Source of the DNA: a virus
DNA length: 32,642 nt
Direction: 5' to 3' (one strand)
IMG/VR virus record: IMGVR_UViG_3300022208_000279
Span: 1 to 32,642 of that record
Under the pieces are notes generated by a model. That model saw nothing but the letters and a program-made list of their open reading frames with translations. It searched no databases and had not been told where the DNA came from. The position numbers were made by a program, and so were the translations under genes. Positions 6,043 to 9,838 of the stretch are shown here, piece by piece. The first letter of the stretch is position 1. Each line of letters starts with the position of its first letter.

Positions 6043-8202
6043 GTGATAGATAACGCAAAACATTACTTGGACGCCGAACTTTCTGTTCTGCCCGCTAAAC
6101 GCCAGGACAAACGCCCTTGTGTTGGCTCCTGGAAACAGTATCAAAATCGTTTGCCAACTCAAGCCGAAATCGATGCTTGGTTCAGCAATCCGCAAGATGG
6201 CGTCTGTATTATTACCGGTGCGGTTTCGGGAAACCTTGAGATCATCGACTTTGATAATGGCGGAGAGTTGTTTGACGCATGGTATGGCCAGATCTCCGCT
6301 GGCCTGCGGGACCGATTAGTTGTTGAACAGACTCCTTCTGGTGGGTGGCATGTGATTTATCGCTGCGAAACCGACATCTGCGGGAATATGAAGCTGGCAC
6401 AGCGGAAAAACGGTAGTAAAATCCATACCTTGATTGAAACCCGTGGTGAAGGCGGGCTATTTTTATGTGCTCCAACGGCTGGGTACGAGCTGATGCAGGG
6501 TGAATTGACGAATGTGCCTGTTCTGAGCAGTGATGAGCGTCAGCAACTTCTGGAGTCGGCATGGATGCTAAATGAACACTGCCCGGCGGTCGCTCATGAG
6601 CCCCAAACCCAAACCGCACGAACCGACGAAACATTACGCCCCGGCGATGATTACAACGCTCGCGGTGATATCGAAACGCTGCTTCGAAATCATGGCTGGC
6701 AACAGATTGAGGTTAATGACAAGAATCAGCTGTGGCGCAGGCCCGGGAAAAGTGGCGGCAGTCATTCGGCGACGTTGTGGAACGAGTCAAAGGTCTTCTA
6801 TGTGTTCAGCACCAATGCAGCGCCGTTTGAAGCCAATACGCCATATTCACCATTTATGACTTTTACGCTGCTGGAACATGGGGGGGATTTCAGCAAAGCG
6901 GCGTCAGCGCTATCCAAACAGGGGTACGGAGAAAGGCCTCAGCAAATTCCTGAACAAAACGATGATGTTGATTTGTCGGGGATGCTATCAAATGAGGATG
7001 ACGAAGATGAATGGGATGATGGAGCCATTTCACTAACTGAACTGATCGCCAATTTTCAGGGGCTCAATAAGCCGCTGATTCATGGCCTGCTTCGTGAAGG
7101 TGAGACGATGAACATTATCGCCTCGCCGAAGATCGGTAAGTCCTGGCTGGTCAACTCGCTGACAATCTCCATTGCATCAGGAATGGACTGGCTGGGATTT
7201 AAGATCAATCCGGGACGCGTGCTCCTAATCGATAATGAGCTTCATCTCAATACGACCACCTATCGCTACATGGAAGTGACCAAGGCGCTGGGATTGCCGA
7301 GCCATCTGTTCAGTGATAATTTAAAAGTCAAATCTCTGCGGGGCCAACTGAAGGACATGAACCAATTGTCTGACATGTTCAAAAAGATTAAACCGGGCAA
7401 ATACGATGTCATCGTAATCGATGCGTTCTATCGTACGCTGCCGGTCGGAACCGATGAAAATGACAACGGTGCGATTGCTGGGCTGTATAACCAGCTGGAT
7501 GTCCATGCCAATCGGCTCAAATGCGCATTTATTCTGATCCACCACACAAGCAAAGGCAATCAGTCCAATAAATCCATCACCGATGTGGGGGCAGGGGCAG
7601 GAGCACAATCACGCGCTGCGGATACACATGTGATTCTGCGGGGTCATGAAGAGGATGATAAAGTTGTCATGGATGCAGCCACACGCAGCTGGCCGCCATT
7701 GAAAACGCTGGTGCTGGCCAAGCAGCACCCGTTGTTTGTGATTGATGATGATGCGGACCCGACAGCTCTGGCCGGCTCCCTCAAAACCAGCCCATCAAAG
7801 AAACAGCTAACCCTGGAAGAGTTCGTGGACAGCTGTGTGGCATCCCAGGACCCCTGCTCACAACGGGCGGTGGTTTATGAATCTGGCCAGCAGTACAGCC
7901 TCTCTGAACGCCGGGCTAAAGAGATGCTCCTTCTGGCTGAGGACCGAGGGCTGGTAACAACAATTACCACCGGTTCAACCGAGCAATTTGTTGCCATCCG
8001 GCCTGGGATCAGTGGTGAAAAAGGATACTGGGCCGCAGCACTTTTGACCCATGAACTGGAGCCGAACACCGCAGAAATCGCTCGAAAAACCGGCGCATCT
8101 GAGCGTCATGTCCGACGAATTAAGGCTCTTCTGGAAGCGGACATGAACCCGGACATGGGCCGGACATCGGACATGGCCATGTCCGCTCCATGTCCGCCTT
8201 AA
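6043..8202 (+). CDS. bifunctional primase-polymerase fused to RepA-like (AAA_25) helicase
   Basis: The gene starts with GTG at 6043, ten bases after the helicase stop. The 719-residue protein joins three parts. The first is an N-terminal prim-pol fold (about 1-175), with metal-binding EIIDFD (66-71) and SGGWHVIYR (99-107, H103). The second is a RecA-like ATPase with Walker A ASPKIGKSW (360-368), LLIDNE (394-399) and Walker B VIVID (456-460). The third is a C-terminal HTH (about 670-705, TAEIARKTGASERHVRRIKAL). An acidic linker (about 317-327) separates the first two. The enzyme should prime and unwind the phage DNA in a self-encoded initiation system. The GGACAT repeats begin within the final 100 bases of this gene. 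Confidence 0.88.
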   Translation: MIDNAKHYLDAELSVLPAKRQDKRPCVGSWKQYQNRLPTQAEIDAWFSNPQDGVCIITGAVSGNLEIIDFDNGGELFDAWYGQISAGLRDRLVVEQTPSGGWHVIYRCETDICGNMKLAQRKNGSKIHTLIETRGEGGLFLCAPTAGYELMQGELTNVPVLSSDERQQLLESAWMLNEHCPAVAHEPQTQTARTDETLRPGDDYNARGDIETLLRNHGWQQIEVNDKNQLWRRPGKSGGSHSATLWNESKVFYVFSTNAAPFEANTPYSPFMTFTLLEHGGDFSKAASALSKQGYGERPQQIPEQNDDVDLSGMLSNEDDEDEWDDGAISLTELIANFQGLNKPLIHGLLREGETMNIIASPKIGKSWLVNSLTISIASGMDWLGFKINPGRVLLIDNELHLNTTTYRYMEVTKALGLPSHLFSDNLKVKSLRGQLKDMNQLSDMFKKIKPGKYDVIVIDAFYRTLPVGTDENDNGAIAGLYNQLDVHANRLKCAFILIHHTSKGNQSNKSITDVGAGAGAQSRAADTHVILRGHEEDDKVVMDAATRSWPPLKTLVLAKQHPLFVIDDDADPTALAGSLKTSPSKKQLTLEEFVDSCVASQDPCSQRAVVYESGQQYSLSERRAKEMLLLAEDRGLVTTITTGSTEQFVAIRPGISGEKGYWAAALLTHELEPNTAEIARKTGASERHVRRIKALLEADMNPDMGRTSDMAMSAPCPP

Positions 8203-8226
8203 GTCTATTAAATGAAATGACTTAAG
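8198..8226 (+). repeat. inverted repeat CTTAAGTC/GACTTAAG
   Basis: An exact 8-bp inverted repeat (8198-8205 and 8219-8226) with a 13-base AT-rich spacer spans the primase stop codon. Each arm contains the palindrome CTTAAG. It could be a dimeric protein site or a hairpin at the end of the transcript. Confidence 0.5.
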
Positions 8227-8240
8227 TCCAAAGCGGACAC

Positions 8241-8278
8241 CGGACATGAGACATGTCTCAAAACGTGTCTCATGTCCG
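8241..8278 (+). repeat. 13-bp perfect inverted repeat (cruciform/hairpin)
   Basis: CGGACATGAGACA (8241-8253) pairs perfectly with TGTCTCATGTCCG (8266-8278) around a 12-base loop. Inside it, GAGACATGTCTC (8248-8259) is itself a 12-bp palindrome, so two alternative foldings compete. No T-run follows. Its place within the GGACAT cluster suggests a replication or operator structure. Confidence 0.6.
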
Positions 8279-8359
8279 CAAGATCGAAAATGATAAACCT
8301 TTAAAAGAAAAGAAGTTATGAATTTTTCTCGCGGACATATGACCGGACATGAGCACACC

Positions 8360-8403
8360 ACTCCCCTACGGGGAGTAGTGCGGGCGTCTGAAACGCCCCG
8401 CAC
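8360..8403 (+). other. two tandem GC-rich hairpins
   Basis: ACTCCCC-TAC-GGGGAGT (8360-8376) forms a 7-bp stem with a 3-nt loop. One base later, GTGCGGGCGT (8378-8387) pairs with ACGCCC(C)GCAC (8393-8403), giving ten pairs, one bulged C and a 5-nt loop. No U-tract follows directly, so a rho-independent terminator is unlikely. They may be single-strand initiation structures or RNA stabilisers. Confidence 0.5.
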
Positions 8404-8551
8404 AACACCCCAAATCGTAGGGCTTTTCCGGGAAAATCAACGGGTCCTCCCTAAAAAATAAAAGACATGAGGCCACGGGAACGAGTCGCATTACATAGGA
8501 CACTTTTTTTTAATCGCGTTTTTTTCATTAACCCTTAAATCGGAGATTTTT

Positions 8552-9838
8552 ATGAGCAGCAATTTCACAGTACAGATCAAAGACATCACCACCATCAAAC
8601 CCTACGATAACAACCCTCGCATCAATGACGATGCGGTGGATGCGGTAGCGGCCAGCCTGAAAGAGTTTGGATTCCGACAGCCGATTGTGGTCGATGGCGA
8701 CGGGATCATTGTCTGCGGCCACACCCGCTACAAGGCGGCACTGCAGTTGGGACTGACCAAAGTCCCGGTCCATGTGGCGACCGATTTGACTCCCGAACAG
8801 ATCCGGGCGTATCGCATCGCGGATAATAAAACCGCCGACCTGGCCGAGTGGGATTATGACATCCTGCCGATTGAGTTATCAGAACTGGCCGATGCCGGAT
8901 TCGATATGGACCTGCTGGCCTTCGATGAAAAAGAACTGAACAAGCTGCTGGACACCGAGATCCAGCAGGGACTGACCGACCCGGATGATATCCCCGACGT
9001 TCCGGACGAACCGATATCACAATCAGGAGATCTGTGGCTCCTGGGCAGTCACCGTCTGCTGTGCGGGGATTCAACGAACGCGGATGATTTCAAGCGGCTT
9101 ATGGATGGGCACAAGGCGGAGATGGTGTTTTGCGATCCCCCGTACAATGTCAATTATGGAGCAACCATGAAGGACACCCTCCGCGGTAAGGATGGGCACA
9201 AGAACCGGGCCGGCAGCAAACCGGGGCGTAAAATCCTCAACGATAATCTCGGCGACAACTTCGGGGCTTTTCTGAAAGCTGCCTGCCAGCAGATTGTTGA
9301 CCATTGTTCCGGTGCGATCTACATCTGCATGTCCTCCTCGGAACTGGATACTCTGCAGGAGGCGTTCCGTTCGGTCGGTGGCCACTGGTCGACGTTTATC
9401 ATCTGGGCCAAAAACACCTTCACCATGGGCCGGGCGGATTACCAGCGGCAGTATGAACCGATTCTGTACGGCTGGCCCGAAGGTGCCAAACGCTATTGGT
9501 GCGGGGACCGCAACCAGGCGGATGTCTGGGAGGTCAATAAACCCCGCAAGAACGATCTGCATCCGACCATGAAACCGGTCGAGCTGATCCTGCGGGCGGT
9601 GACCAACAGCTCCAAGCAGGGAGCGATTGTCCTGGACCCATTCATGGGCTCCGGTTCCACCCTGATCGCCTGCGAGCAATCCAACCGCACCTGCTATGGC
9701 ATGGAACTGGACCCGGGCTATTGCGATGTGGTGGTCCAGCGTTGGGAAGAGTTTACCGGAAACAAAGCGGAGCGGATCGAAGCGACGAAGAAAACCCCGG
9801 CAGAGGATACCGAGGTTCAAGAAGAGGTGAAGGTCTAA
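8552..9838 (+). CDS. ParB-like nuclease domain fused to DNA methyltransferase (beta class)
   Basis: This 428-residue fusion has a ParB/sulfiredoxin-like N-terminus (about 1-95, NNPRINDDAVDAVAASLKEF and the CGHTRYKAA motif at 55-63). An N6-adenine/N4-cytosine methyltransferase follows, with catalytic DPPYNV (195-200), a central recognition region and the SAM-binding DPFMGSGST (362-370). The order DPPY before FxGxG places it in the beta class. Orphan phage methylases of this kind protect phage DNA against host restriction and may mark replication sites. The SD is GGAG at about 8540. No cognate restriction gene is visible. Its 3' end faces the HARE-HTH gene with an 8-base gap. Confidence 0.85.
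   Translation: MSSNFTVQIKDITTIKPYDNNPRINDDAVDAVAASLKEFGFRQPIVVDGDGIIVCGHTRYKAALQLGLTKVPVHVATDLTPEQIRAYRIADNKTADLAEWDYDILPIELSELADAGFDMDLLAFDEKELNKLLDTEIQQGLTDPDDIPDVPDEPISQSGDLWLLGSHRLLCGDSTNADDFKRLMDGHKAEMVFCDPPYNVNYGATMKDTLRGKDGHKNRAGSKPGRKILNDNLGDNFGAFLKAACQQIVDHCSGAIYICMSSSELDTLQEAFRSVGGHWSTFIIWAKNTFTMGRADYQRQYEPILYGWPEGAKRYWCGDRNQADVWEVNKPRKNDLHPTMKPVELILRAVTNSSKQGAIVLDPFMGSGSTLIACEQSNRTCYGMELDPGYCDVVVQRWEEFTGNKAERIEATKKTPAEDTEVQEEVKV

Follow-up and report, generated by a model that had tools for sequence, protein, structure and literature searches.

The repeat array at positions 8108-8350 of the window (the whole stretch of 32,642 nucleotides of viral DNA analysed here) is very probably the replication origin of a planctomycete prophage, located at the 3' end of the prophage's own initiator gene and composed of iterons that the HTH of that initiator would read. 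We favor this reading because of the position of the array, its geometry, an AT-rich spacer, adjacent stem-loops, the covariation of one protein helix with the repeat unit, and the precedent of Streptococcus phage Sfi21, whose annotated origin occupies the same place. The window is identified as a prophage by its genes for terminase large subunit, portal, capsid-protease, tape measure and integrase.

The initiator gene and the array at its 3' end

The N-terminus of the initiator is a Prim-Pol domain of the AEP, ORF904-like type, whose catalytic domain matches Pfam PF09250 above the cutoff (E 1.4e-12) and the ORF904 profile 1ro0 (4.2e-8). It is followed by a RecA-type core like that of the hexameric helicases of the RSF1010 RepA (AAA_25) type, matching PF13481 (E 1.6e-28) and the RSF1010 RepA profile 1g8y (2.8e-7). 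The last 205 residues were modelled with AlphaFold2 from an alignment of 27 sequences, and both HTH units were obtained at pLDDT ~90. The top structural match of the winged helix was the SAMD1 WH (Z 10.2, 67 residues, 1.7 A); fold searches returned matches to this unit only, and the absence of matches to the last HTH is no evidence. The last HTH was modelled as a compact unit of three helices, the third of which spans aa 687-701. Residues past this unit, encoded by the left iteron block, were modelled at pLDDT <50, and in relatives that keep the array the coding tail is missing or dissimilar. The array therefore sits in dispensable codons and leaves the functional domains unconstrained, contrary to the proposal of the sequence-only reading that it constrains the C-terminal codons of the enzyme.

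Eleven exact copies of GGACAT, in both orientations, had been reported within these 243 bases, and all were recovered (8108(-), 8139+, 8151+, 8162+, 8169+, 8179-, 8190-, 8242+, 8272-, 8333+, 8345+). The chance expectation for 243 bp is ~0.15 copies, and the density is ~75 times expectation; the entire window contains 38 copies, compared with 19.9 +/- 4.7 in shuffles. CGGACA occurs 12 times and CATGTC 10 times in the same interval, and the true repeat unit is longer than GGACAT, being better written CGGACATG. When repeats were scored as 8-mers with no more than one mismatch, the array reached 10, far above 300 shuffles of its own sequence (mean 3.25, maximum 5), and the runner-up among 162 tiles of the window scored 6. 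In a search of the whole 3.0-Mb host assembly, pairs or clusters of CGGACAT were found only at this array. Both of the inverted repeats described earlier, of 8 bp and a perfect 13 bp, were also present; CTTAAGTC, which pairs with GACTTAAG, recurs as a direct repeat at 8221-8228, and the 13-bp repeat is bracketed by the forward iteron at 8242 and the reverse iteron at 8272. Judged by sequence comparison, the iteron copy within the recognition-helix codons is perhaps fortuitous, since it is missing at the equivalent place in the related locus L245. GC skew showed no switch at the array and was uninformative, nearly all genes of the window lying on one strand.

Table 1. Features of the initiator gene, the array and their surroundings (positions in the window; aa, residues of the initiator).
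Feature	Position	Strand	Basis or remark
Initiator (primase-helicase) gene	6043..8202	+	Pfam, PDB profile matches, AlphaFold2
Prim-Pol domain	aa 5-146		
RepA/AAA_25 RecA-type helicase domain	aa 343-507		
Winged HTH	~aa 588-654		C-terminal part
Three-helix HTH	aa 659-701		C-terminal part
Codons for SERHVRRIK (aa 686-694), predicted recognition helix	8098..8124	+	Covariation scan, Mantel tests, model helix
Iteron copy within recognition-helix codons (E R H V R R)	8107..8114	-	
Left iteron block of CGGACATG units	8138..8196		4 forward (8139, 8151, 8162, 8169) and 2 reverse (8179, 8190); overlaps gene end
CTTAAGTC/GACTTAAG inverted repeat	8198..8226		Arms 8198-8205 / 8219-8226, flanking A/T stretch
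Perfect 13-bp inverted repeat (stem-loop)	8241..8278		Arms 8241-8253 / 8266-8278
AT-rich spacer, candidate melting region	8279..8332		50-mer here up to 78% AT
TTA box AGTTATG	8314..8320	+	Consensus A-c-TTA-y-g; 50 bp before stem-loop
Right iteron pair	8332..8352	+	Spacing 12 bp
Conserved stem-loop element	8348..8429	+	H1 8361-8375, H2 8379-8402; covariance model R1
ParB_N-DNA methyltransferase gene, downstream	8552..9838	+	Outside conserved module

Position and geometry of the array in relatives

Whole genomes belonging to the same phylum and class supplied the relatives. Single-sequence scans with the window protein gave no match in viral or genome collections, but profile scans succeeded; a search of a plasmid collection returned distant matches only and no near relative. 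One chromosome, CP087563.1 (Planctomycetes bacterium syqfu, G352), was seen to carry at least 10 primase genes of this kind.

Array position was evaluated with a score that assumes no unit, the number of occurrences of the most repeated 8-mer (either strand, no more than one mismatch) per 400-bp interval. Across 77 loci, a set that extends to proteins alike in just one half, either the Prim-Pol half, joined to a DUF3987 helicase, or the AAA_25 half, the mean score of the interval at the initiator stop codon was 8.05, compared with 4.7-5.5 in neighboring intervals. This interval was the strict unique maximum in 46 of the 77 loci, where 4.6 are expected, and 54 loci beat every shuffle of their own sequence. 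The roughly 30% of loci with no significant array would be degraded, distant or truncated elements, or elements with other origins. Among six distant phages, Javan253 and EFC-1 had their top score at the stop codon, and the corresponding intervals of Constance, Hayley, FP_Lugh and Calle_1 had no standout score; repeated words are nonetheless visible by eye in Constance, Hayley and FP_Lugh.

The copies did not vary randomly among relatives, and all copies within an element changed together. In relatives having Prim-Pol, AAA_25 and HTH domains, the positions and orientations of the units were largely kept while the word differed (CGGACATG, GGGACATG, CGGAACTG, CGGAAATG, TGGAAACT, TTGAAACT and TGTCAACT across the group), and within any one element a single word was common to all units, as expected if a single protein reads all of them. 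On the left side, forward units were followed by reverse units. The right side consisted, in most relatives, of a reverse iteron, ~60 bp, two forward iterons 10-12 bp apart and the stem-loop element, and this arrangement was seen with units CGGACATG, CGGAACTG, TGGAAACT or TTGAAACT. The length of the ~60-bp spacer between iterons was nearly constant, and mean AT content climbed over the ~200 bp that follow the stop codon.

In L061 (= L246; genome G287), an opposite-strand gene of 438 codons for an ATPase-like protein occupies -6 to +1308 from the primase stop and precedes the array; this gene seems to have inserted between the initiator and the origin, and the array beyond it is intact in geometry, AT spacer and stem-loop, with units GGGACATG. 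Two loci of the DUF3987 type, L087 and L102, have arrays downstream of the primase stop with near-identical iteron positions and one base switched unit-wide, from GAATCCGTCACG to GAATCCTTCACG. A sister group without the last HTH (L055, L056, L058, L068, L069 and L071) carries longer units, CGTTTCGTTTTGTGCG, at near-identical positions, and in these elements the winged helix may be the iteron reader. L059 contains a GCGGACA/ATGTCCG-like cluster ~1.7-1.9 kb before the stop, in the linker between Prim-Pol and helicase, whose words differ from its own CGGAACTG iterons; a second origin is conceivable for the linker array of L007 and L059.

The conserved module continues past the array into the stem-loop element (8348-8429), homologues of which were detected at 26 loci besides the window. 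In their alignment 92% of cells were paired and 11 of 14 pairs had changed on both sides, and this support collapsed once the pairing partners were slid; alternative closing pairs are formed by 8364-8369 and 8417-8422 (CCCTAC/GTAGGG). In the genomes searched, every strong R1 match adjoined a gene of this type, in the AAA_25+HTH group, and none was found in the DUF3987 or AAACGAA groups; the idea that Prim-Pol origins generally have the element was accordingly rejected. No Rfam family matched within 8000-8700. The element could act as DNA or as RNA, and by analogy with the ssi sites of RSF1010 and the stem-loop of pRN1 it may be a priming site. The TTA box, a motif picked post hoc by eye, was present 50 bp ahead of the stem-loop at 15 of 25 loci, compared with 1.8 in shuffles. 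Conservation of the 13-bp hairpin was weak (mean inverted-repeat score of 6.4, compared with 4.5 in shuffles), and some relatives have hairpins of other sequence in its place.

Covariation of the last helix with the iteron unit

At 23 loci, similarity of the units was correlated with identity over nine residues (SERHVRRIK and its equivalents) with r 0.72 (Mantel), and with a partial r of 0.71 when core identity was given (permutation p 0.0002, an optimistic value since the loci are interrelated, with some unit models resting on 4-7 sites). The reverse comparison, of units with core identity when the helix was given, left a partial r of -0.04. The 9-mer was first chosen by eye; a 9-residue sliding scan of the whole protein, which is independent of that choice, peaked at aa 680-697 (r 0.75, compared with a mean of 0.11), and this peak coincides with the third helix of the last HTH in the model. 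The top 12 of 710 protein windows all overlapped aa 680-699, and the best window elsewhere, from aa 708 on (r 0.44), falls in the tail encoded by the array itself.

Helices of the form (E/D)RY.RQ were paired with CGGAAC, ERH.RR with CGGACAT, and (R/S)QY..Q with TTGAAAC, TGGAAAC or TGTCAAC. This rule was fixed before we read the sequences of new loci found by the profile scans, and it fits 13 of 15 new distinct loci, the other two (RYxRM) having the new word CGGAAAT. L245, with a core identity of 59%, has a helix one residue off that of the window (SERHLRRIK) and the same unit, CGGACATG, yet L134, L214 and L050, at ~70% core identity to the window, have different units. These sequence relationships suggest that the third helix of the C-terminal HTH specifies the iteron unit.

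The proposed origin, alternatives and known systems

We propose that the Prim-Pol/RepA-like/HTH protein would bind the CGGACATG iterons of the left and right blocks through its C-terminal HTH, and that the AT-rich spacer between the blocks would melt. The RecA-type helicase domains would form a ring at the melted spacer, the Prim-Pol domain would prime the exposed strand, perhaps at the neighboring stem-loops, and host polymerases would extend the primers.

The sequence-only reading had left the choice between an origin and an operator for the replication operon. Position, geometry, covariation and the comparison with Sfi21 argue for the first of these. It is improbable that the initiator or another phage protein acts at the array chiefly to regulate the replication operon or the downstream gene. 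Iterons frequently double as autoregulatory sites, a leader of ~200 bp precedes the next gene and the inverted repeats are possible attenuators, but the array is located 3' of the initiator gene rather than ahead of it, the downstream gene varies among relatives while the module persists, the array is intact in L061 where a gene splits it from the primase, and the constant 60-bp AT-rich spacer with its stem-loop resembles an origin. Autoregulation is possible as a side role of the array.

A packaging site is less probable still, as is a partition or centromere-like site serving the ParB_N-methyltransferase encoded next to the array. The ParB_N domain is indeed encoded by the next gene, and pac sites can take the form of arrays close to terminase genes; against this, many arrays have no adjoining ParB_N gene, the unit tracks the primase helix rather than the neighbors, and the equivalent region of Sfi21 is annotated as an origin, with the Sfi21 cos site elsewhere. 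The left block does fall within the final codons (PDMGR, SDMAMS), but the chance that the repeats simply derive from a repetitive protein tail is close to nil, given that units occur in both orientations and continue beyond the stop codon, that relatives with the array lack this tail or have a different one, and that shuffle scores never come close.

The sequence-only reading had placed the array in no named family, but its layout matches those of Sfi21-type origins and of the origins of PICIs. The origin of Sfi21, a phage inhibitory sequence described as conferring resistance (PMC6356513), lies next to a Prim-Pol gene and is annotated over 302 bp, the first 28 bp of which fall within the primase/D5 gene; its 9 exact AGTAAC/GTTACT iterons form two sets around a stretch of 98% AT. 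As in the window, the array overlaps the end of a primase/helicase gene, the module contains a Prim-Pol gene, and iterons in two orientations enclose an AT-rich core; the unit differs (AGTAAC rather than CGGACATG), and the Sfi21 helicase is of the D5/SF3 type, on a separate ORF, with no detectable similarity to the window protein. In the PICIs (SaPI and Gram-negative), origins lie directly 3' of the initiator, with one set of iterons on each side of an AT-rich region (PMC6092414), and the window has this layout. PICIs are satellites that rely on the structural genes of a helper phage, whereas the window prophage itself encodes a terminase large subunit, portal, capsid-protease and tape measure. 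Together, the window family and Sfi21 suggest that the PICI-type layout is more widely distributed.

Other systems share parts of the arrangement. Like the window, the ORF904 replicon of pRN1 and phage BIP-1 encode Prim-Pol, helicase and a C-terminal DNA-binding domain on a single polypeptide, and the pRN1 origin is a stem-loop of ~100 nt 3' of the ORF904 gene; pRN1 differs in its SF3 helicase and in having a stem-loop without iterons, where the window has both (PMC4234260). The oriV of RSF1010 has iterons and stem-loop priming (ssi) sites (PMC4234260), and its RepA matches the window's helicase domain; in the window, priming at the stem-loop is only putative, and one polypeptide takes the place of three proteins, RepA, RepB' and RepC. 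Phage P4 has a Toprim primase with an origin-binding winged helix at iterons (PMC4234260), in contrast to the Prim-Pol and AAA_25 domains of the window, which set it apart from the P4 alpha/ori/crr system. For AEP primases with a C-terminal WH, whose families share the window's domain combinations (RepA, DUF3987 and D5 helicases, with WH at the end), it was speculated that the WH recognizes the origin (PMC5862659); the passages concerned contain no origin sequences, and the present study adds candidate origins and the helix-unit correlation. In PLEs, diversification affects both the RepA iterons and the initiator modules, possibly in response to attack from the origin-directed nuclease Odn (PMC8263062), but their initiator is a RepA_N protein of another fold and their iterons are ~30 bp.

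The layout was thus already known, and what is added here is the Prim-Pol/RepA-like/HTH domain combination in tailed prophages, how widely it occurs in Planctomycetota prophages, a geometry that holds constant as units change, and a readable helix-to-iteron code; a limited literature search found no description of this combination, of such a geometry or of a helix code. The chances are about even that the primase-helicase fusions found in tailed phages and in other elements make up a widespread class of self-contained replicons, each built from an initiator gene, iterons that overlap the 3' end of that gene, an AT-rich core and a stem-loop priming site, and each with its identity set by a single C-terminal recognition helix. 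The family represents a natural swap experiment, in which new units appear within a preserved geometry and the accompanying protein change is focused on one helix, and it offers ready helix/unit pairs for specificity tests, with the primase set of CP087563.1 as natural material for compatibility tests. It also provides a direct route to locating origins in many uncultured phages, and predicts which elements compete for or block each other's origins, as with the Sfi21 origin. If the proposal is true, replicon identity, compatibility and origin-based phage interference would be predictable from nine residues.
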